Below are positions 2,290 to 24,665 of a stretch of DNA of 64,000 nucleotides, in pieces (within the stretch, counting starts at the first letter, position 1; each line of letters opens with the position of its first letter). Origin of the DNA: an uncultured Sphingomonadaceae bacterium (lineage in GTDB: Bacteria > Pseudomonadota > Alphaproteobacteria > Sphingomonadales > Sphingomonadaceae). The position numbers and the translations under genes are program-made. The notes beneath the pieces are model-generated. The model was not told where the DNA came from and made no database searches. It was given only the letters and a program-made list of their open reading frames with translations. Where the stretch lies: NCBI GenBank assembly GCA_947494305.1, contig CANLUL010000002.1:615727-679726 (forward strand). The letters are read 5' to 3'.

Positions 2290-2494
2290 TTTTTTGCTGC
2301 CCCCGACGATTGTTCCCGTTACCGGCGATGCGATTGCAGGAAACAAACTTAGCTTGACCAGTTTTCGGTAATAAGACAATTGGATTCTTCGATCTCTGCG
2401 GTTTTCAACCTTCCATCCCAGATTCCTGACAAGCGGGTCAGGCCTTTGCTACTTGTTCTAAGAAAGACTTACACCATCTGCAGACCTGCTAGAC

Positions 2495-4765
2495 ATGATT
2501 GATCGGGTGAATAACCTTTTACTCGACCGGAAAAAATCTTTTGCGCTGCTTATCCTTGTGTTGGCGATATTGTCGGTATTCGGTGCCACCCAAATTCGTT
2601 TCGATGATGGCGCGCGCGATATCTTTGCCTCCACTTACCCGGAATATGTTCAGTTTACGGAGCACAAGACCGAATTCCCACAGGCCGACACCGAAATTGT
2701 CGTAGTCGCCCGTTCGGAACATCGCTTTAATCAGCGTCAACTTGAGGGGCTTCGCGATCTTGTTTTTGACGGGCAATTGGTTGACGGTATTGAGTTTGCA
2801 CATTCGATCTTCTCCATCCAGAACTATGATTCTGCATCGGGGGAATTTCAGAATCTGATTGCTGATGATCTTTCCAGCTATCCAAATATGTCAGTTCCAC
2901 TGAACCGAATTGCGCAGTCAGACTGGCAAATATTGCCGTTGGTGAACACCGAGCAAAATGAGATGGTAATTGTCTATTCGGTCGAAGAAGACCGAGTTGA
3001 TGAGAAAAATGTCCAACCGATTCTTGATGAATTGGGAGTCTTGCTTGCCGAAACGGCGGAAGATTCGAACCTGGAACTGCAGATGACCGGCACACTGCCG
3101 ATACTGAACCTGATAGTTAACCGCATTATCTCAGAGCAAGCCTTGTTGAACGCCATTGGCGGAATATTGGGAGCCCTTGTCTCCTTGCTTTTGTTCCGCA
3201 GTCTGGCTGTTGGTTTGCTCAACGGTATTGCCCCCATTTTTGCGGTCCTGCTTACGCTGGGCGCAATGGGCTGGCTCGGGCTGGAAATGAACGTGATCAC
3301 CAATTCGATTTCGATCCTAATTCTCGTGATCACAATGGCAAATTGCATTCACATGACATTCGAGCTGCGAAAAAATGCTGCTGCAGGCAAAGGGCGAGAT
3401 GAGTCTGTGCGCGCTATGATGCGAGCAATAGCTGCGCCTTGCATGTTAACTGGACTAACAACCATGATAGCGATGGCGGGTTTGTTTTACTCGGGATCGG
3501 CATTGATCGAAATGTTTGCTGTGGCGGCTATTGTCGGACTCATATTGTCGATATTTTCCGCAATTGTAGTTCATCCATTGGTTTTTGCCCTTGGCTGGCG
3601 TCTTGGCTGGATTGAAAGGGCGCTGACCAAACCATTACAGCCAACGGGCCGTGACAATTTGGGTTTTGCCGGAATAACACAATGGCTGATTGGCAGAAAA
3701 TACCCAGTGGTAATTTTGAGCGGACTATTTGCTACTCTGCTTTTGGCCGCTTTTCTGCCGGTGGAATCAACGCATCGGTTCAATGAGTATCTGTACGATG
3801 ACGAGCCAATAATATTGTCATTGAAACGGGCAGAGTCGATCAGCAGCCCGTCACAATCACTGGATATAGTTCTTCGCCAAACTCCCAAGAACCAACCGTT
3901 AATGTCCAAAGTGAATTTTGAAACGCTTGGTAAGGTGCATCAGGAACTAGAAAAAGCATATCCCGATAATCACATATATTCGCTTCATAGTTTGCGCCGG
4001 ATTTTGCTGAATTCCGGGGAGCCGGCGGGTCCAGATAGCATCGAAATACTTCTGGATACGCTACCGGACCGAATGAAGGCAGAGCTGATTGGATTGTCAG
4101 AAAGCGCGTTCAAACTGTCCTTTCGTGTCGAGGATCAGCCATCGCCCAATATCCGGCAGCTTACATCGGCGATTGAGACACAATTGAAATCCACCGATAC
4201 GGGACATTTAACCGTCGAGCCGATTACCGGCCTCACAGCGCTTTCCGCTCATTTGTCTGATCAGATGATCAAGGAACTGACGATCAGCTTTCTGATTGCT
4301 GCTTTTGCCTGTCCGTTGTTGATCGGGCTATGGTTTCGCGATTGGCGCTATGGTCTTGCAGCCGTTCTGCCCAACGTGATCCCTGTTCTGGTCGTTGGTG
4401 CATGGCTGATGGCCAGTGGCTGGAAACTCCAGTTTACCGGTGCGATTGCTCTCTCGATCGCCTTCGGAGTGGCTGTTGACGACACCATCCATGTTCTCAA
4501 TCGCCTGCATATCAACCGGCGCAAAAAAGGCGGTGCCTTTACCATTTCAGATCTATCCGGCGTTATGCAGCATGTTGCACCGGCATTGATTACAACGACG
4601 CTGGTTCTTTCCGTCGGCCTGTCCTCCGCTTTTTTTAGCGAGATGCCAACGGTCCTTTATTTCGGTTCAATTTGCATAGCGATTTTCCTACTCGCGCTTC
4701 TCGCAGATTTGTTGATGCTGCTGCCAATGATCGCTGTTTTGGAAACGAGCCGTCGCACGCTCTAA
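2495..4765 (+). CDS. MMPL/RND superfamily exporter
   Basis: A 756-residue inner-membrane protein with the duplicated RND layout. There is one TM near residues 15-33, a periplasmic loop to about 205, and a TM cluster about 210-370 containing NSISILILVITMANCIHM. The arrangement then repeats: TM near 400, second loop, TM cluster about 605-750 containing AFGVAVDDTIHVLNRLH. The Asp pair in VAVDD and the MMPL/sterol-sensing-like segments fit a proton-driven lipid or hydrophobic-molecule exporter. In size and type it resembles predicted exporters related to the hopanoid transporter HpnN, but no hopanoid gene is nearby. The gene stands alone, facing away from the secreted protein gene. Confidence 0.85.
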   Translation: MIDRVNNLLLDRKKSFALLILVLAILSVFGATQIRFDDGARDIFASTYPEYVQFTEHKTEFPQADTEIVVVARSEHRFNQRQLEGLRDLVFDGQLVDGIEFAHSIFSIQNYDSASGEFQNLIADDLSSYPNMSVPLNRIAQSDWQILPLVNTEQNEMVIVYSVEEDRVDEKNVQPILDELGVLLAETAEDSNLELQMTGTLPILNLIVNRIISEQALLNAIGGILGALVSLLLFRSLAVGLLNGIAPIFAVLLTLGAMGWLGLEMNVITNSISILILVITMANCIHMTFELRKNAAAGKGRDESVRAMMRAIAAPCMLTGLTTMIAMAGLFYSGSALIEMFAVAAIVGLILSIFSAIVVHPLVFALGWRLGWIERALTKPLQPTGRDNLGFAGITQWLIGRKYPVVILSGLFATLLLAAFLPVESTHRFNEYLYDDEPIILSLKRAESISSPSQSLDIVLRQTPKNQPLMSKVNFETLGKVHQELEKAYPDNHIYSLHSLRRILLNSGEPAGPDSIEILLDTLPDRMKAELIGLSESAFKLSFRVEDQPSPNIRQLTSAIETQLKSTDTGHLTVEPITGLTALSAHLSDQMIKELTISFLIAAFACPLLIGLWFRDWRYGLAAVLPNVIPVLVVGAWLMASGWKLQFTGAIALSIAFGVAVDDTIHVLNRLHINRRKKGGAFTISDLSGVMQHVAPALITTTLVLSVGLSSAFFSEMPTVLYFGSICIAIFLLALLADLLMLLPMIAVLETSRRTL

Positions 4766-4810
4766 CCGCACCGACTGCAATTGTAGCAAATAGGGTATCT
4801 ATGAAAAAAA

Positions 4811-4886
4811 TGGCAGGGGCGCACGGGTTCGAACCGTGGGCCTTCGGTTTTGGAGACCGACGCTCTACCAGCTGAGCTACACCCCT
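4811..4886 (-). tRNA. tRNA-Trp (CCA anticodon)
   Basis: The minus strand gives a full cloverleaf: acceptor AGGGGTG pairing with CGCCCCT, D-arm GTAGCTCAGCTGGTAGAGC, anticodon loop CTCCAAA with CCA, T-arm with GGTTCGAAC, discriminator G and encoded CCA end. It is immediately followed by a T-run (plus-strand A-run at 4804-4810), which may end transcription. It sits convergent to the MMPL gene. The usual secE-nusG neighbours are absent. Confidence 0.95.
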
Positions 4887-5147
4887 ACACGGACTTTGCG
4901 TCCCAATGGTTCGCGGGCCTTAGCGATAAGTGGGCCTTTTCGCAAGCATCCTGTTCACAGGTCCGGGGATAAGTAAAACGTGGTAAAATAATTGTGACTT
5001 ATTGTTTACCCCACGGGAAAATAAGCAATTTACCTCGCTCTGTGAAAAGGACTTGTCGATGCCAAAAACCATGAGGGTAATGTTTCCGGACCTGTTTCGG
5101 GCGAGGTTAAGGCAAAGCGCGGGATAGAAACAATCGGAGTAAGAAAC

Positions 5148-5555
5148 ATGACTGAATATTATACCGACACAGGCACAATTTCTCGAAAAGCAAGCGAACC
5201 AAAACCAGGTTTCGAGTCGCGACCACCTTTCGAATATGTTTATGCAGCTGAAGAAGATCGGTGTGCGGTGCGATATCCGGTCGCTATTCCTGCTCGTTTG
5301 CGCTTTTCCTGCGCGCAAAGTTTCGATGTCGTTTTGTCAGACATTTCACTGGCCGGGTTCAACTGTGACGCGCTTATGCAAGCCGATCCCGGAACGCGCT
5401 GTTGGATTACAATGCAGGGTTTGGGATCGCTCGAAGCTGAAGTGATCCGCTACGATAATCGCGGGCTGGGATGTGCTTTTTCCATCCTGCTTAATCCAGC
5501 GGTACTCGATCGATTGCTGGCGGAGTTTTCAACGAAAAAGCTCTCAAACACCTAA
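5148..5555 (+). CDS. PilZ domain protein
   Basis: A 135-residue protein whose C-terminal two thirds is a PilZ c-di-GMP receptor domain. The RxxxR motif (RCAVR) is followed by YPVAIPARLRF, and the second binding motif DISLAGF matches D/NxSxxG. Both halves of the c-di-GMP site are therefore intact. The N-terminal 35 residues are polar and probably disordered. The start is supported by GGAG 8 nt before the ATG. It is a paralogue of the PilZ protein at 7733-8113. A role as a small cytoplasmic c-di-GMP effector is inferred; the partner is unknown. Confidence 0.85.
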   Translation: MTEYYTDTGTISRKASEPKPGFESRPPFEYVYAAEEDRCAVRYPVAIPARLRFSCAQSFDVVLSDISLAGFNCDALMQADPGTRCWITMQGLGSLEAEVIRYDNRGLGCAFSILLNPAVLDRLLAEFSTKKLSNT

Positions 5556-5623
5556 TCATCTCGTCAATTTGCGGTTGATGCCTGCTTCGTTATAACGGTC
5601 TCCAATCTGGCCCGGAGGACATT

Positions 5624-6172
5624 ATGACAGAAGCAGGCATTGTAACTAAAAAGCAGCCCGATCCATTGAAGGTGCTCCGCATTTTCCGGGGCTCCGACGC
5701 GCCCAGCCTCGATGAAGCCGGCCATATGGAATATGTCGATGATGATCCGGTGATTTTGGATGGTGCGGCCAAATTAGGCGAAGCGGGAATTGGCGAAGGG
5801 GCCGTTTTGAAATGCCTATTCTCCGGATTTGGATTTTCACTCCACTATGTCTGGTTCAAACCCGCATACCCTTTGCCGCTGCATAGCCACAACAGCGATT
5901 GTCTATATTACATAATTTCCGGCGATATTCGCATGGGCACCGAAGAAATGAACGCCGGCGATGGGTTTTTTCTACCCGCAGAAACCCCCTATACCTACAC
6001 AGTTGGCGAAGATGGGGTCGAATTGCTTGAATTCCGCACGCAGGAAGATTTCGATATTCAGTTTAAGGGAAAAACCGAGGCCTATTGGGAAAAGATGCTT
6101 GAAAAGCTGCGCACTGAGCAGCCGAAATGGAAAGAAGCGCTGCCGCCTAGCCGAGAATATCGGAATGTATAG
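5624..6172 (+). CDS. cupin domain protein
   Basis: A 182-residue protein with one cupin barrel. The metal-binding motif 1 is PLPLHSHNSDCLYYIISG (HxHx(5)Y, with Tyr replacing the usual Glu). Motif 2 lies around GDGFFLPAETPYTYTVGEDG, where the usual His is not evident. The C-terminal tail is charged and helical (EAYWEKMLEKLRTEQPKW). Such proteins may be dioxygenases, isomerases or small-molecule binding proteins; the weak motif 2 makes an enzymatic role uncertain. It lies 68 bp downstream of the PilZ gene and convergent to the Rieske oxygenase gene. An accessory role in a catabolic pathway is only a guess. Confidence 0.75.
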   Translation: MTEAGIVTKKQPDPLKVLRIFRGSDAPSLDEAGHMEYVDDDPVILDGAAKLGEAGIGEGAVLKCLFSGFGFSLHYVWFKPAYPLPLHSHNSDCLYYIISGDIRMGTEEMNAGDGFFLPAETPYTYTVGEDGVELLEFRTQEDFDIQFKGKTEAYWEKMLEKLRTEQPKWKEALPPSREYRNV

Positions 6173-7732: not shown

Positions 7733-8113
7733 ATGACTTCTTTTGACCCCAGTGTAAATCTAGCCAATAAAGTAATATTGGCCGACCAACCCCAACCAAA
7801 AGGCGAACGCCGAAAGGCACAGCGCTATACTATGGCGATACCTGCATTGATGGAATTTGCGGATGATGAAGTCATATCTGTCACCGTTACTGATATGTCT
7901 TTGGCTGGTTTCGCATGTGACAGTCGTCAAATTTTCACACCCGGCACAAAATGCTGGTTAAAGTTACCAAGCCTTCCGGGGTCACAAAGGTTCTCAATCA
8001 TGGAAACCCGTGTGGTGCGATGCGACGGAAACCATATGGGATGTGCTTTCGCATGGATGCTTAAACCAGAAGACTTGGAACCGTTTTTGGCTGAGTATCA
8101 GGTTGCCGCTTAG
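7733..8113 (+). CDS. PilZ domain protein (second copy)
   Basis: A 126-residue protein starting at the ATG with GGAG 7 nt upstream. It has an intact PilZ site: RKAQR (RxxxR) then YTMAIPALMEF, and DMSLAGF (DxSxxG). It shares the same architecture and several identical blocks (SLAGF, PGTKCW/PGTRCW, MGCAF/LGCAF) with the PilZ protein at 5148-5555, so the two are paralogues. The N-terminal 30 residues are polar. It probably acts as a single-domain cytoplasmic c-di-GMP receptor. An inverted repeat lies in its leader. Its end lies 1 bp from the convergent YbaN-like gene. Confidence 0.85.
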   Translation: MTSFDPSVNLANKVILADQPQPKGERRKAQRYTMAIPALMEFADDEVISVTVTDMSLAGFACDSRQIFTPGTKCWLKLPSLPGSQRFSIMETRVVRCDGNHMGCAFAWMLKPEDLEPFLAEYQVAA

Positions 8114-8114
8114 C

Positions 8115-8510
8115 CTATTCGACAAATTTTTGATTGGTTTCGGGTGGATCAAGATCCTTTGGTTCTGCCCGAGTCCAAATCCATGTACCGCCAATTAGAG
8201 CTGCTGCGAAAGGCGCCAGGCTCCAGGGCAGTTGTGCAAAGATCAGGGATATTACACAGCTAGCGGCAAAAGCTATCGTTGCTGCCCATTTTCCTTTCCG
8301 CGTAATGGCGCGGCCTTTTCGCCAGTTTTGGATGTGCGGACCAAATGTTTTATGTTCTACCAGCCATCTCTCTAACCGTGGTGAGCTGTTCGCAAAACAA
8401 AATGCGGCCAAAATCATAAATGGAACGGTCGGGAGCAATGGCAGGATAACGCCAATACTACCGAGTGCCAGTGAAGCTAGTCCCGCCAATAAGAAAAGCT
8501 GCTTTTTCAT
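8115..8510 (-). CDS. YbaN/DUF454 family inner-membrane protein
   Basis: A 131-residue protein from the ATG at 8510. The N-terminal TM contains the family-type sequence LGSIGVILPLLPTVPFMILAA. FCFANSSPRLERWLVEHKTFGPHI and the RGRAITRKGKW loop follow, then two further hydrophobic segments. This is the conserved pattern of DUF454 (E. coli YbaN), of unknown function. An in-frame GTG at 8543 directly abuts the nhaA stop and would add 11 residues. Neither start has a good Shine-Dalgarno; ATG gives the usual family length. It is probably co-transcribed with nhaA. Confidence 0.8.
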   Translation of the reverse strand: MKKQLFLLAGLASLALGSIGVILPLLPTVPFMILAAFCFANSSPRLERWLVEHKTFGPHIQNWRKGRAITRKGKWAATIAFAASCVISLIFAQLPWSLAPFAAALIGGTWIWTRAEPKDLDPPETNQKFVE

Positions 8511-8543
8511 CAGGCGGCAATAACATGATTGGACGGATTTCAC

Positions 8544-9749
8544 TCAAGCTATTTTGGGGGTTCCTGCGCCAATCGTCTCATAGCCATGTTTTGGAGCGAA
8601 ACGCAGCAGGCAATATCCCAGAACACCAGAGATCAGCGATCCGCTTATCACGCCCAATTTCACCGTTTCTATTTGCTCAGGATCGACAAAGGCGAGATTG
8701 CCGATAAACAGGCTCATCGTAAATCCGATCCCCGTTAGGCAAGCGAGACCATAGAGTTGCACCCAACTGACACCTTGTGGGCGCTGCACCAAACCCAGTT
8801 TTGTGGCGAGAAACATGAAGCCGAATACCCCAATTTGTTTGCCAAGCACCAATCCTGCCGCAACGCCAAGTGCCAAAGGTGCCATCAGATCGCTGACCTG
8901 AATACCGGCCAAAGAAACGCCAGCATTGGCAAAGGCAAATATCGGCAGAACCAAAAATGCTGTCCATGGATGGAGAATATGCTCCAGATGCTTAAGCGGT
9001 GACGTACCATCTTTGGCACTAAGCGGGATTGCGAGGGCTGCGACTACGCCAGCCAAGGTGGCATGGACGCCGGATTTCAGAACGCAAATCCACAAAAATG
9101 TTCCGACCAGAACATAGGATGCAATGCGCACTACGCCCAAACGATTCATAGTGAACAACACTATAGTTCCCACCGCTGCTAGCACCAAAGAGATGGTCGA
9201 AACATCCGCTGTGTAAAATAGCGCAATGATGATGATCGCACCGATATCGTCAATAATAGCGATCGCGAGCAACAATATCTTTAGGCTGAGAGGAGCATGT
9301 TTACCGAGCAGGGCCAGCACTCCGAGCGCAAAGGCAATGTCGGTGGCCGCTGGAATTGCCCACCCATTTAGGTTCTGCGGCATATCAATATTGATCCAGA
9401 CAAAAATGGCGGCGGGAATGGCCATCCCACCAACTGCGGCAATAGCGGGTAAAGAGGCTTGCTGGATACTGGAAAGCTGCCCTTCAACGATTTCCCGTTT
9501 AACTTCCAACCCGACCAGGAAAAAGAAAATGGCCATCAAGCCGTCATTGATCCACAGCGATAGCGGTTTGGCGATCTCTAGTGCGCCAAATTGCACCTCA
9601 ACAGGGATGTTCAGGAACGCCAGATAGATAGGGTTGAACGCACTGTTTACCGCAATCATTGCAGCCACAGCAGCAATGAACAGAACAATTCCTGCACTGG
9701 TTTCTTGTTTGATGAATTCTTGAAGGGCCGCTTTTACTGTGGTGACCAT
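8544..9749 (-). CDS. nhaA: Na+/H+ antiporter NhaA
   Basis: A 401-residue protein with the NhaA fold. Conserved motifs include NDGLMAIFFFLVGLEVKRE, PAATDIAFALGVLALLG (D137, the equivalent of E. coli D133) and IAIIDDIGAI with the ion-binding Asp pair D167-D168. The C-terminal half has GFTMSLFIGNLAF. About 12 TM segments are seen and the length is normal. It exports Na+ in exchange for protons across the inner membrane, giving salt and pH tolerance, which fits a marine lifestyle. It is followed by the YbaN-like gene and separated from the upstream DUF465 gene by a strong terminator. Confidence 0.97.
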   Translation of the reverse strand: MVTTVKAALQEFIKQETSAGIVLFIAAVAAMIAVNSAFNPIYLAFLNIPVEVQFGALEIAKPLSLWINDGLMAIFFFLVGLEVKREIVEGQLSSIQQASLPAIAAVGGMAIPAAIFVWINIDMPQNLNGWAIPAATDIAFALGVLALLGKHAPLSLKILLLAIAIIDDIGAIIIIALFYTADVSTISLVLAAVGTIVLFTMNRLGVVRIASYVLVGTFLWICVLKSGVHATLAGVVAALAIPLSAKDGTSPLKHLEHILHPWTAFLVLPIFAFANAGVSLAGIQVSDLMAPLALGVAAGLVLGKQIGVFGFMFLATKLGLVQRPQGVSWVQLYGLACLTGIGFTMSLFIGNLAFVDPEQIETVKLGVISGSLISGVLGYCLLRFAPKHGYETIGAGTPKIA

Positions 9750-20443: not shown

Positions 20444-22621
20444 ATGAGGATATCATCGAAGCGCGCATCCAAAATGGCGGCTTTGTCGAGTTTGAGCGTG
20501 CTGGCAATGGCTTCGCAACCGGCCTTTGCGGCGGACGAATCCGAGGGCGCTGTGGATGATCGGGAAATCGTCGTATCCGGGGAAGTTCTATATTCCAACC
20601 AGATCAATGCAGTCAAAACGCCGACGCCGATTATTGATGTTCCTCAAAGCCTTACAATTACCTCGAAAGAAGAGATTTTGGAGCGAGGGATTACCAGTAT
20701 CGGTCAGATTATCGATTACACACCGGGTGTGAATAGCTCTCAGGGAGAGGGTCATCGCGATGCAGTCGTGTTCCGCGGTGTTCGGTCAACCGCTGACTTC
20801 TTCATTGATGGCATGCGCGATGACGTTCAATATTATCGTGGGCTATACAATCTAGAACAAGTTGAAATTCTCCGTGGCCCCAATGCGCTTCTATTTGGCC
20901 GTGGCGGCGCAGGCGGCGTACTAAACCGTGTTACCAAGAAAGGGACGATTGGCAGAACCTTTGGCGGGGGCCAGATTGCCGTTAATACCTTTGGTGGTTT
21001 CAGTATTCAGGGTGATGTTAATTTGGCAGCCGGTGAAAATATCGGTGTTCGGCTAAATGCGGCCTATGAACATCTCAACAATCATCGCGACTTTTTTGAC
21101 GGTGATCGCATCGGAATCAATCCAACGGTCCGATTCAAGCTGGGAGAAGCAACCACATTGGATTTGTCATACGAATATGCCGATCATGAGCGTTTCATTG
21201 ATCGCGGTATTCCGACCGGAGACGATGGCCGCCCCGTTTCGACGCTACGCAATGTCGTATTCGGCGATCCGGAATTTAATTTCCTGGATTTGCAGGCGCA
21301 TATTTTTCGCGCCAATTTGAGTCACGAGTTTTCCGATAATTTCAAGGGTAACTTTGGCGCTTTTTACGGTGACTATGACAAGGTTTATTCAAACTTTTTT
21401 ACCAATGATTTCGATCCTGCAACCAATCGGGTTGAACTGGATGGTTATGTTGACACGACCGAACGCCAGAATCTGGTCCTGTCAGGCAACTTGGTCGGTG
21501 AATTTGAAACAGGGAGCATCGGTCATACGCTGATCTTTGGTGGTGAATATATCAATACTTCATCGGATCAGAACCGCCTCAACACCCGTTTCGATACTTC
21601 TGTTACCGATGTAGCAAATGGGGTTGTTGATCCATTTTTCGGTGCGGCTAGAACTGACCGTGCCATTTTTGGTGTTTCTCGCCCTCTAAGCCTCAGCAAC
21701 AACATGGGCACATTGGCCGATGGTCGGGCAACAATAAATTCCTTCGCCGACCTCAATGATGATACCCGTGTCGATATTGATGTGTTGTCTTTCTACATTC
21801 AGGATGAAATCAAGCTAACCGACTGGTTGAATGTAGTCGTCGGCGGCCGTTTTGACAGTTTTGATATCACGGTGAACAATGTTCCTGGTAATGAGATCCG
21901 GACCCGCAAGGATGAAGAATTTTCTCCTCGTCTTGGACTGATCTTGAAGCCACGTGAGAATGTCTCCTTTTACGCCAGCTATAGTGAGAGCTTCTTGCCG
22001 CGTAGTGGAGAACAGTTCGCCAATATTAATGGCAGCAACAATGCTCTAGACCCCAATACATTCACCAACCTTGAGGCTGGTGTCAAATGGGACTTCGAGC
22101 AAGGTCTGAGCTTAACCGCTGCGATATTTGAAATTGAACAAAGTTCGCCGCAAACCAGTGACAATGACCCCTCCACGCTTGACGTGATTGATTCCAAAAT
22201 TCAAGGTTTTGAGGTGCAGCTGGAAGGCCGCGTAACAGATAATTGGACGATCTCTGCTGGTTACAGCTATCTCGATGGCGAGCAGGTTAATCGCGGGGGG
22301 CCTACTGGCCTTCGCCCTCGCGAATTGCCCGAAAATATGTTCTCGATCTGGAACAATATTCAGATATCGGATCGTATCGGCTTCGGTGTCGGACTGACCC
22401 ATCAGGATGAGAGCTTTATCAACAATGGCAATACAGCGGTCCTGCCATCTTACACGCGGCTTGATGCGGCGGCCCATTTTGATGTGACTGAGAATCTGCG
22501 GTTGCAGGTCAATATCGAAAATCTGACCGATACAACCTATTTCCCGAACGCACACGCCACCCATCAAGCCACGGTTGGCGCACCGCTGAACGCCCGTTTT
22601 TCCGTTACGGGCAAATTCTGA
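20444..22621 (+). CDS. TonB-dependent siderophore receptor
   Basis: A 725-residue outer-membrane receptor. A signal peptide (SSKRASKMAALSSLSVLAMA with AFA cleavage) is followed by the plug domain: TPIIDVPQSLTITSKEEI, INDYTPGV-like DYTPGVNSSQGEG, and EQVEILRGPNALLFGRGGAGGVLNRVTKK. A long beta-barrel follows, ending in the canonical aromatic ARFSVTGKF. The NLTDTTYFPNAHATHQATVGAP end block is typical of ferric-siderophore receptors of the TIGR01783 kind. GAGGG lies 10 nt before the ATG. It is preceded by Fur-like boxes, so it is probably induced by iron starvation. The siderophore is unknown and no biosynthesis genes are nearby, so it may scavenge xenosiderophores. Confidence 0.93.
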   Translation: MRISSKRASKMAALSSLSVLAMASQPAFAADESEGAVDDREIVVSGEVLYSNQINAVKTPTPIIDVPQSLTITSKEEILERGITSIGQIIDYTPGVNSSQGEGHRDAVVFRGVRSTADFFIDGMRDDVQYYRGLYNLEQVEILRGPNALLFGRGGAGGVLNRVTKKGTIGRTFGGGQIAVNTFGGFSIQGDVNLAAGENIGVRLNAAYEHLNNHRDFFDGDRIGINPTVRFKLGEATTLDLSYEYADHERFIDRGIPTGDDGRPVSTLRNVVFGDPEFNFLDLQAHIFRANLSHEFSDNFKGNFGAFYGDYDKVYSNFFTNDFDPATNRVELDGYVDTTERQNLVLSGNLVGEFETGSIGHTLIFGGEYINTSSDQNRLNTRFDTSVTDVANGVVDPFFGAARTDRAIFGVSRPLSLSNNMGTLADGRATINSFADLNDDTRVDIDVLSFYIQDEIKLTDWLNVVVGGRFDSFDITVNNVPGNEIRTRKDEEFSPRLGLILKPRENVSFYASYSESFLPRSGEQFANINGSNNALDPNTFTNLEAGVKWDFEQGLSLTAAIFEIEQSSPQTSDNDPSTLDVIDSKIQGFEVQLEGRVTDNWTISAGYSYLDGEQVNRGGPTGLRPRELPENMFSIWNNIQISDRIGFGVGLTHQDESFINNGNTAVLPSYTRLDAAAHFDVTENLRLQVNIENLTDTTYFPNAHATHQATVGAPLNARFSVTGKF

Positions 22622-22731
22622 GCGGATGACTATTTGATCAGGTGACTTCGCACAAAGATTCGAAGCCATCTGATCGAGTAGCAAATTGCTTGCCGTAAAT
22701 CAGGCCTTCATCGTCAGCTTTTGGGGTTTTG

Positions 22732-23910
22732 TTACCGCCGCTGCTCTTCGGCCTGTATCGTTCTGGCATTGGCTTTCTCAATCTCGTTCACAGCAACCTC
22801 AGTGCTGGTGGGGCGATACCAATCGAAGCGGGAAAAATGTGCGGTGAGATCGGCGCTCTGAAAAATCCGGCCCTTGCGTGCGAAGATTTCGTTTCGGGCG
22901 AGGCGCAGTTCGGCCTTACTCAGAGAGCTTAACTCGCCGGGACTGATAATTCTGCTGCCAGAGTCGGGAAAATAAACTTTGGGCGATTTGGCTCGGCTCG
23001 CGGTCAACGCGATCCGAGAATAATGCATATAACCAATCTGACCATCATCGGTACGGATCTTCCACCATTGACCCTGTTGCCGGTGCGTATAGAATATTTC
23101 ACCGGTTTCAATGCGTCCGATGATGGAGGAAGAACGCGTGGGTTCGGCGCGGAAATTGGTCCAGCCATCGGCATCCTCGATCATCGCCGATTCATTAAAC
23201 TCGTTGCTTTTTGGTGATTTTGGCAGAGGAACGGCGGGTGGAGCTGGCTCGGACGCATCCGTGTCTGCGGCTTCCGTTGACTCGGCAGCTTCGGTGTCCT
23301 CAGTCTCGGCTGATGCTACCGTATCGACAGCTGTTTCTGTAACTTTGTCATCGCCGCCAAGGATAAGCCATCCCACTAAACCAGCGACAAGCACCAGCGA
23401 GCAAATGGATATAATCAGCGGCAACTGGCTGCTTTTTGCAGTAGCAGTTTCCGGCGGCGGCGCGGGAATCGATGCTTCTTTTCGAGGGGCCGGTGCAGGC
23501 TTTGGAGCCGCGACATGTTCTTTGCCGACCAGATCAGCAAGGCTGAGCAATACTTTGTGCCAGGCAGGATGATCGCTCTCGCCATCCCAATCAGATAGCA
23601 ACGCATATTGGATCTGGTTGAAGGGCAGGGGCGGCATACCGTCGTCAATCGATGTCTGTACGAGTTTATTTTGGTTGCGGGCCATATCCGCCTCGGCGCG
23701 TACCCATTCTGATTTTGCTGCTTGTGCTGACCAAACCACGATGACGGCTTTGGCTCCGCCGATCTTTTCCTGGATCACTTCGGTATAGGAAAGATGCGGA
23801 GGCAGGTCCTTGTCCCACCATAGGTCGTAGCCTGCTTCTTTGACGGCAGTCGCGATTTTGCTGACCGTTTCCAGATCATCGCGCGAATAGGAAATGAATA
23901 CATCGGCCAA
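22732..23910 (-). CDS. TIR domain - TM - SH3 - YARHG protein
   Basis: A 392-residue protein. Residues 1-130 are a bacterial TIR domain (ADVFISYSRDD, AGYDLWWDKDLPP, AVIVVWSAQAAKSEWVRAEADMA). E73 in the WVRAE motif is in the place of the NADase catalytic Glu of SARM1-type TIRs. A Pro/Ala linker and a TM at 163-185 follow, then an acidic Thr/Glu/Ala stretch, an SH3-like domain at about 241-300 (GWTNFRAEPTRSSSIIG, WWKIRTDDGQIGYMH) and a YARHG-like domain at about 322-385 (LSKAELRLARNEIFARKG). Topology suggests a cytoplasmic TIR and periplasmic SH3/YARHG. The start is TTG 23910 with GGGGGA 7 nt upstream. Known TIR proteins act in defence or signalling; the role here is inferred only. Confidence 0.88.
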   Translation of the reverse strand: MADVFISYSRDDLETVSKIATAVKEAGYDLWWDKDLPPHLSYTEVIQEKIGGAKAVIVVWSAQAAKSEWVRAEADMARNQNKLVQTSIDDGMPPLPFNQIQYALLSDWDGESDHPAWHKVLLSLADLVGKEHVAAPKPAPAPRKEASIPAPPPETATAKSSQLPLIISICSLVLVAGLVGWLILGGDDKVTETAVDTVASAETEDTEAAESTEAADTDASEPAPPAVPLPKSPKSNEFNESAMIEDADGWTNFRAEPTRSSSIIGRIETGEIFYTHRQQGQWWKIRTDDGQIGYMHYSRIALTASRAKSPKVYFPDSGSRIISPGELSSLSKAELRLARNEIFARKGRIFQSADLTAHFSRFDWYRPTSTEVAVNEIEKANARTIQAEEQRR

Positions 23911-23975
23911 ATCAAATATCCCCCAAAACTTGCGACCGCTTCAGTTCATATCGGGAGAGGAAGAGAATGTCACAA

Positions 23976-24515
23976 TCATTCTTCCGGGGTCAGTGCCGGA
24001 ACAGCCTTTGCTGCATCTTCCGGATCAATCCCGGGCGGAGGTGCGGCGCTGAGCGTCGCTTCTCCCCGTGCCACCCGTCCGGCCCGTTGGATCGCTTCAC
24101 GAACCCGCGGATAAGTCCCGCAGCGACATATGTTCGTGATCGCTTCGTCAATATCATCATTGGATGGGTTGGGGTTTTTCTTGAGCAATACCGCGGCCGC
24201 CATGATCATGCCCGATTGGCAAAAACCACATTGCGGGACGTTTTCGGCCGCCCATGCCTGTTGCACCGGATGGCTGCGATCACGCGATAGCGCTTCAATG
24301 GTCGTGATAAAGCGCCCTTCCAGTTCACCGATGGTGACGAGGCAGGACCGTATCGCCTCTCCGTCAATCTCCACCATACAGGCGCCGCATTCACCGGTGC
24401 CGCAGCCATATTTTGTGCCGGTTAGATTGGACGCGTCACGCAAAGCCCAAAGCAATGGCGTGTCTTCGTCCATACGATATTCCACGGGGCGATTATTGAC
24501 GGTGAATTTTGTCAA
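23976..24515 (-). CDS. 2Fe-2S subunit of a molybdenum hydroxylase (IorA/CoxS-like)
   Basis: A 179-residue protein with the two-cluster layout of xanthine dehydrogenase-family small subunits. The plant-type ferredoxin Cys are C38, C43, C46 and C58 (YGCGTGECGACMV, RSCLV). The second cluster Cys are C96, C99, C130 and C132 (QCGFCQSGM, NICRCGTYPRV). All eight are present. The C-terminal 25 residues are a Pro/Ala/Glu tail beyond the usual family end. It would pass electrons from a molybdopterin large subunit, but no such gene adjoins it; the next gene is the TIR protein 65 bp on. The TTG start is imperfect. Confidence 0.9.
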   Translation of the reverse strand: MTKFTVNNRPVEYRMDEDTPLLWALRDASNLTGTKYGCGTGECGACMVEIDGEAIRSCLVTIGELEGRFITTIEALSRDRSHPVQQAWAAENVPQCGFCQSGMIMAAAVLLKKNPNPSNDDIDEAITNICRCGTYPRVREAIQRAGRVARGEATLSAAPPPGIDPEDAAKAVPALTPEE

Positions 24516-24529
24516 ACCCTGGCCTTACT

Positions 24530-24665
24530 CGTCATCCTGAACCCTACTCGTCATCCCGAACCATACCCGTCATCCTGAACTTGTTTCAGGATCTTTGTGC
24601 GATGCTTTATCCCGATGGGGATGCTGAGCCAAGGGCCATCGGAAAATAACCAAGTTCAGCATGAC
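24530..24665. repeat. three 19-bp tandem units with a distant inverted copy
   Basis: CGTCATCCTGAAC-type units begin at 24530, 24549 and 24568, an exact 19-bp period; the 13-bp core differs by a single C/T. The third unit continues as TTGTTTCAGGATC, which pairs with its own CCTGAAC. At 24651-24665, CAAGTTCAGCATGAC is the reverse complement of the third unit (GTCATCCTGAACTTG) with one mismatch. The whole block fills the gap between the molybdenum-hydroxylase subunit and the aldolase genes and has no open frame worth calling. It looks like a dispersed intergenic palindromic element. Confidence 0.7.

Follow-up and report, generated by a model that had tools for sequence, protein, structure and literature searches.

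A transmembrane TIR protein with SH3 and YARHG domains as the probable receptor half of a TIR-cyclase signalling module in Sphingomonadaceae

Most of what is known about TIR proteins in bacteria concerns soluble forms that act as effectors against phages or make messengers. The window considered here, i.e. the whole analysed stretch of 64,000 nucleotides, contains a gene for a TIR protein that also has a transmembrane helix (TM), an SH3 domain and a YARHG domain, and the locus raises the question of what such a protein does and whether it does so alone. The original prediction was that of a one-protein receptor. In the following, the protein, its relatives and their gene neighbours are analyzed. 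We will argue that the gene encodes the receptor, or input, half of a two-part signalling module, in which an envelope-sensing TIR protein feeds a cyclase with a SLOG-like domain, and we put the probability of this reading at roughly 0.6.

The features of the locus that are needed for the discussion are the following (window coordinates):

22622 to 23975, no strand: strain-specific insertion, flanked by a TonB-dependent receptor gene (20444-22621, plus strand) and a 2Fe-2S protein gene (23976-24515, minus strand).
22732 to 23910, minus strand: whole coding sequence of the TIR-TM-SH3-YARHG protein, 392 residues, with a TTG start.
23581 to 23901, minus strand: TIR domain, residues 4-110 (Pfam TIR_2, 6e-20; Foldseek matches AbTIR, SPARTA and SARM1), predicted to be cytosolic from the topology.
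23692 to 23706, minus strand: W69-V-R-A-E73, a WxxxE motif with the catalytic-type glutamate, from its invariance and its alignment to PdTIR and AbTIR.
23359 to 23415, minus strand: single transmembrane helix, best 19-residue window at residues 166-184, from hydropathy.
23200 to 23352, minus strand: acidic linker rich in Pro and Ala, residues 187-237, from the sequence and its low pLDDT.
23017 to 23157, minus strand: SH3_3 domain, residues 252-298 (Pfam, E=4e-9), probably periplasmic.
22744 to 22971, minus strand: YARHG domain (PF13308), residues 314-389 (Pfam, E=1e-17), probably periplasmic.

The TIR_2, SH3_3 and YARHG matches all lie above the curated Pfam cut-offs and are the only ones in the protein to do so; a cyclic-nucleotide-binding domain is not among them. 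In the AlphaFold model, evaluated in blocks of ten residues, the pLDDT is 77-96 for the TIR domain, 92-97 for SH3 and 88-97 for YARHG. For residues 131-230, which comprise the linker and the transmembrane helix, it is 40-65, and the helix is thus outside the confident part of the model. The best Foldseek match of the model is AbTIR in complex with 3AD (7uxu). Structure prediction and profile searches of each part, together with the hydropathy, hence confirm the domain layout that had been proposed.

Hydropathy gives exactly one hydrophobic stretch in each of the 40 aligned family members, and the charge of its flanks places the TIR side in the cytosol for 31 of them. Judged from this charge bias, the SH3/YARHG side is most likely extracytoplasmic, in agreement with the original assignment. 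The glutamate E73 of the WVRAE segment is unchanged in all 40 aligned TIR domains and falls on the W-x-x-x-E glutamate of PdTIR and AbTIR in the alignment, in the latter of which we take it to be E208; its placement at the catalytic position is therefore upheld. According to the part of PMC10022894 used here, the catalytic glutamate of AbTIR is E208. The TIR domain of the window protein thus keeps the catalytic-type glutamate and may be an active NADase. A promoter and terminator scan around the gene gave nothing above chance.

We next consider the genomic setting. Of the 32 genomes of the genus, one has a window-type TIR gene and the other 31 have none, and in all 11 congeneric loci examined the flanking genes are syntenic and free of any match to the window TIR, which points to a recent insertion of a single gene. 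The window copy stands alone, with no adjoining cyclase gene, and the site is not a genomic island, as had been stated. In the TIR tree it forms a long branch of unsure position; this tree has 89 rows and few columns, was built with a quick method, omits six duplicate loci (L036-L040 and L046) and is the one place where more distant TIR rows, below the family cut-off given below, were used.

The occurrence in a single genome of the genus, the otherwise syntenic surroundings, the long branch and a usual partner that is not adjoining would all suit a partnerless passenger, i.e. a horizontally transferred single gene on its way to loss. We regard this as improbable, since the reading frame is open, no TIR residue that is invariant in the family has been lost, the three domains score above the Pfam cut-offs, and a SLOG-like cyclase is encoded elsewhere in the same genome. 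This cyclase gives the only such match of the genome (G000:C2:497399-498646), 139 kb from the window TIR, and its gene, at about 497393-499153 of contig C2, lies directly behind a second TIR gene, whose product has two hydrophobic helices at its C-terminus and, by eye, a stretch resembling a coiled coil. No STALD match was obtained in the window genome.

Upstream of the 2Fe-2S gene, positions 24523-24580 of the window hold three tandem copies of a 19-nucleotide unit resembling CCTTACTCGTCATCCTGAAC, and an inverted pair related to this unit is found at 24569-24586 and 24648-24665. The idea that the family resides in defence islands was also considered and found no support in the neighbours viewed in relatives, which are housekeeping or mixed genes (pyruvate kinase; YebC-like and GltX-like by eye).

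The relatives of the protein give a different picture as to partners. Among 249 surveyed genomes from the family, one of which is that of the window, close TIR relatives occur in seven other genomes, with eight genes. Four of these relatives (in G122, G104, G023 and G116) have both SH3 and YARHG, and the remaining ones have one of the two domains. Except in L039 and L042, i.e. in six of the eight loci, the TIR gene is followed by a cyclase gene that overlaps or nearly overlaps it; for L037, L038 and L041 the cyclase family PF00211 was confirmed by Pfam, and for L035, L036 and L040 the cyclase frames were found by profile searches of open reading frames and six-frame translations.

A broader sample comes from the contigs of named genomes. 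A search with the single protein gave no match there, but a scan with the family profile did, and the best 80 of the 101 confirmed matches correspond to 80 loci (L058-L137), mainly from Sphingomonadales but also from some Caulobacteraceae and from two unplaced MAGs. Defining the family by a TIR score of at least 175 bits yields 51 genes in 49 loci among these best 80 of 101 matches. Downstream of 38 of the 51, within 4 kb and on the same strand, there is a gene for a SLOG-like cyclase, with or without an N-terminal TPR-S domain; nine are unlinked with at least 3 kb visible and four lie at a contig edge (best 80 of 101 matches). The earlier remark that no other defence gene stands beside the TIR gene is thus correct for the window copy and misleading for the family. 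For the exact SH3+YARHG layout the neighbourhood survey speaks against a stand-alone arrangement, with a linked cyclase in 19 of 19 loci among the best 80 of 101 matches, a pattern from which the window copy departs; in one of the 19 (L071) only the SLOG-like part is seen before the contig ends, and in another (L094) the cyclase frame is broken. The recurrence of the full layout in four other genomes of the family survey and in 19 named-genome loci (again from the best 80 of 101 matches) shows that it is not a chance combination.

The two genes are also close in the strict sense. A possible cyclase start lies at most 60 bp from the TIR stop in 35 of the 38 linked pairs, with a 4-base overlap in 20 and a 1-base overlap in five of these 35 (best 80 of 101 matches), counts that favour small distances since the in-frame start nearest to the TIR stop was taken. 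Overlap or near-overlap of start and stop is what translationally coupled genes usually show. The complete two-gene unit measures about 2.0-3.1 kb (L098, L058 and L070). Two consecutive TIR-TM-YARHG genes are found ahead of a single SLOG-like cyclase in L082 and L084. Overall, we consider the pairing of the TIR protein with a SLOG-like cyclase to be well supported and likely.

It is of interest to see what happens where the two genes are not linked. All 14 searched genomes whose family TIR is unlinked or at a contig edge contain the cyclase, which in G656 is split between two contigs. In ten of the 14 there is no family TIR in the flank of the cyclase (1.5 kb or up to the contig end). As to the other four, the cyclase belongs to a second TIR-cyclase operon in two, stands beside another TIR type in one, and in the last is apparently part of the same operon as the TIR gene, split by the contig end. 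With the window genome included, the count is 15 of 15.

These numbers bear on the possibility of a stand-alone receptor NADase, in which a periplasmic ligand would switch on the TIR domain, the output would be loss of NAD+, and the cyclase would belong to a separate process. The lone, non-island position of the window copy and its intact WxxxE motif would agree with such a protein, as would the nine of 51 relatives that are also unlinked (best 80 of 101 matches). A cyclase in every genome with an unlinked or edge copy, and the operon-like arrangement elsewhere, argue against it, and we consider it to have only a small chance of being correct. The original one-protein receptor is accordingly not supported, and a two-part arrangement is the better reading, with the cyclase linked in most relatives and present in the 14 genomes above and in the window genome itself.

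Statistically, the cyclase (E<=1e-56) is found in all eight genomes of the family survey that have a window-type TIR, the window genome among them, and in 21 of the 241 that lack one (Fisher 1.3e-8); this and the other co-occurrence p-values are optimistic, as the genomes are related and the comparison leaves aside how common the cyclase is within the clades to which the unlinked copies belong. In the larger draws, the genome searches scored part of the first-look candidates. When the cut is relaxed to E<=1e-20, 48 of the 249 genomes match the cyclase profile, 19 of them with partial or weaker matches. As a control, 12 genomes with the TIR type that comes next in similarity, at 115-150 bits, were inspected; three of them have a full cyclase (p=0.15 versus the rest), so that the rule does not extend to this type. 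A fourth, G111, shows a partial SLOG-like match only. The control TIR reading frames are mostly 550-760 residues long, with TPRs confirmed by Pfam in four of the 12.

The association does not hold in the reverse direction. Of 29 cyclase-containing genomes in the family, 21 have no window-type TIR, and 10 of 37 cyclase genomes have no TIR_2 match within 4 kb, so that the cyclase is not tied to the window-type TIR. It does keep company with TIR domains in general: 27 of the 37 have a TIR_2 match within 4 kb, where about 1% would be expected at 3.4 matches per genome, and 36 of the 37 have one somewhere, i.e. one of the ten without a close match has none at all. Within the genus, the cyclase occurs in 11 of 32 genomes, and a second TIR type is present in the same 11 and in none of the other 21. 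This second type (reading frames of 337-376 residues) was recognised by length and score, three copies that were compared being 75-99% identical; it is linked to the cyclase in four genomes (G000, G260, G269 and G275) and far from it in seven. In a class-wide draw, the cyclase is found in 23 of 385 genomes from many families (E<=1e-30), and two of the 22 loci outside the window genome show a TIR within the flanks examined. One genome (G142) has 11 TIR_2 matches and a single SLOG-like cyclase match, with none of the former near the latter.

We now turn to the partner protein. It has no consistent transmembrane helix and consists of a Rossmann-type domain followed by a class III cyclase, often with TPR-S at the N-terminus. 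PF00211 is above the cut-off in the partners of L041, L038, L037 and L047, and the best fold and profile matches of the cyclase half are solved adenylyl and guanylyl cyclases, CyaB and Cya2 in the case of Foldseek. Two aspartates at the metal positions and the arginine of an ARIEP segment are invariant in 29 rows; their roles are presumably those of the corresponding residues in class III cyclases. The positions of base recognition, read by eye, seem to hold Asn and a hydrophobic residue, unlike the usual Lys/Asp of adenylyl and Glu/Cys of guanylyl cyclases. In the Foldseek search of the cyclase, a uridylate cyclase appears at rank 44.

The AlphaFold model of the partner has a pLDDT of 90 and a pTM of 0.89, and as a whole it matches a phage DprA-like protein with a TM-score of 0.80 by target length, in a Foldseek output that does not give the matched part. 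The Rossmann-type domain carries a loop, GPLACGAD, in which we see a resemblance to the SGxAxGID motif of DprA. An assignment as SLOG by sequence was attempted and abandoned: four regions and one whole protein gave no Pfam family for this domain at E<=10, hhalign gave no match of it to one ThsA-type STALD protein, to the TIR alignment or to the cyclase alignment, a profile search with the domain returned LOG proteins only, weakly (E=1.1), and a broader profile run against the PDB returned unrelated chains only (E=0.9). We therefore call the domain SLOG-like on the basis of its predicted fold. TPR-S (PF20308) is N-terminal in the two partners tested for it, one of them that of the window genome (E=2.5e-12 and 4e-13), and the match in the L037 partner is below the cut-off; short partners of about 370-400 residues, such as those of L038 and L041, have no room for it.

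On the basis of these components the following mechanism seems the most likely one. The SH3 and YARHG domains in the periplasm would read the state of the envelope, and the single transmembrane helix would pass the signal on to the cytosolic TIR domain. Upon stimulation, the TIR domains would cluster and convert NAD+ into an ADP-ribose-type nucleotide, which would be bound by the SLOG-like domain of the partner. The cyclase half would then make a cyclic nucleotide that drives the response. The window TIR would in this scheme act in trans on the cyclase 139 kb away. The step in which the TIR product is sensed by the SLOG-like domain is, in our estimate, slightly short of an even chance.

TIR domains are classic assembly modules, and the main alternative to this scheme is that the TIR domain is a non-enzymatic scaffold, whose ligand-driven clusters would bind the SLOG-like cyclase and switch it on directly, with no NAD+-derived messenger. 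A physical complex of this kind fits the close gene coupling and the joint conservation. A pure scaffold would have no need of the WxxxE glutamate, which is invariant in 40 of 40 members, and the co-occurrence persists where the TIR and cyclase genes are far apart, which makes this alternative rather unlikely.

The flow of information could also be reversed, with a cyclic mononucleotide from the cyclase activating the TIR NADase and leading to NAD+ depletion and growth stop. The search with PADLOC, which we understand to include PycC models, gave no family at E<=1 for the two partner cyclases submitted (L041 and L037). In the text of PMC11224242 that we drew on, a class III cyclase and a TIR protein form a Pycsar pair, and PycTIR is known from Novosphingobium. 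This Pycsar-like flow is improbable for the present protein, because Pfam finds no cyclic-nucleotide-binding domain in it and the two cyclases go unrecognised by PADLOC; in addition, the TIR protein has sensor-like domains of its own.

Returning to the preferred reading, in which the TIR protein is the input to the cyclase, we find that the sensor part of the TIR proteins is swapped from locus to locus. Near SLOG-like cyclases there are TIR-TM-SH3-YARHG, TIR-TM-SH3 and TIR-TM-YARHG proteins, TIR proteins with two C-terminal transmembrane helices (L047 and L266) and TIR-TM-TPR proteins (L257 and L262, by Pfam), the last not always encoded by the adjoining gene or on the same strand. In one locus from the window's own genus (L265), a TIR-TM-LprI gene (2685-3890, minus strand) is divergent from a SLOG-like cyclase gene (3936-5723, plus strand), and a second small TIR with two C-terminal hydrophobic stretches lies at 8105-8818 (minus strand), beyond an ABC1-kinase gene. 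The LprI domain is named as a lysozyme inhibitor. Two other loci (L052, 2170-8310; L053, 2472-8531) hold a gene cassette in which a Ser/Thr kinase and a PP2C phosphatase accompany TIR-FHA and a SLOG-like cyclase, possibly a phospho-controlled version of the same TIR-cyclase module.

In L038 (the same locus as L098), the product of a third operon gene, at 2360-3085, resembles a lipoprotein, the signal and lipobox being judged by eye, and contains two copies of the SH3 type found in the window protein, and the TIR protein itself is without SH3, a case of domain fission. The same YARHG type also ends a caspase-like protein (Pfam) in which an N-terminal hydrophobic segment precedes the caspase part (L043, 9600-11045), and a similar YARHG end and hydrophobic segment are seen in a protein that is caspase-like by resemblance (L044, 7519-9855). 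As for published work, the part of PMC3355149 at hand proposes peptidoglycan binding for YARHG and describes kinase-TM-YARHG, caspase-YARHG and SH3-YARHG layouts, and the word TIR is absent from its main text. Taken together, the SH3 lipoprotein, the caspase-YARHG proteins, the LprI domain and the YARHG literature suggest that what is sensed is the envelope, and the ligand of SH3 and YARHG is probably peptidoglycan or something linked to the wall.

As a more general and more tentative proposal, which we hold somewhat less probable than not, Alphaproteobacteria may possess modular transmembrane TIR receptors with exchangeable sensors, either periplasmic (SH3, YARHG, LprI) or other (FHA, TPR), whose NAD+-derived product would be read by a SLOG-like domain and turned into a cyclic nucleotide. 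This would join the chemistry of Thoeris and that of Pycsar in a relay of two messengers, would represent a prokaryotic TIR receptor working from the outside to the inside, and would allow several TIR receptors of one genome to feed one cyclase. If true, TIR signalling would be used for reporting on the cell envelope, by a transmembrane TIR coupled to a cyclase, NAD+-derived messengers would be connected to cyclic nucleotides, and the ways in which Toll-like TIR receptors can arise could be tested directly. Among the matches listed in a literature search that left most subscription papers and bioRxiv outside its scope, no title or abstract opening describes a pair of TIR and SLOG-like cyclase. 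The nearest paper, in the part consulted (PMC7159879), counts cyclases together with TIR and SLOG among the domains that generate signals in vWA-MoxR conflict systems.

Among the known systems, Thoeris resembles the present pair in that a TIR gene with a catalytic-type glutamate lies next to a gene with a SLOG-type domain, assigned here by fold, and in that a single partner gene is accompanied in the genome by one TIR gene or by several, with linkage in 38 of 51 TIR genes (best 80 of 101 matches) and in 27 of 37 cyclase genomes. In Thoeris, one ThsA gene accompanies one or several ThsB genes (PMC11204291, from the part used). The output domain of the present partner is, however, a class III cyclase instead of SIR2 or TM-macro, the partner gives no STALD match, and the window-type TIR is anchored in the membrane, with domains that are most likely outside. 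A gene for a SIR2-STALD protein (ThsA-like) with a TIR-like frame on the opposite strand (by eye) was encountered in L205 (genome G532) and may mark a genuine Thoeris system in a different alphaproteobacterium.

The Ser/Thr kinases with YARHG described in the consulted part of PMC3355149 share the general plan of an N-terminal cytosolic signalling domain, one transmembrane helix and a C-terminal YARHG outside, with a putative role in wall sensing, and differ in the signalling domain, which in the window protein is TIR. With Pycsar, the present pair has in common a protein of the class III cyclase family that is genetically linked to a TIR protein. It differs in that no cyclic-nucleotide-binding domain is detected in the TIR protein, in that the two partner cyclases have no PADLOC match, and in that a SLOG-like domain, often together with TPR-S, forms part of the cyclase protein. 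Compared with Toll-like receptors, finally, the domain order is, as we take it, reversed and the sensor domains are different. No kinship is claimed, and the likeness is a functional analogy: a sensor predicted to be outside, one transmembrane helix, and a TIR domain in the cytosol.
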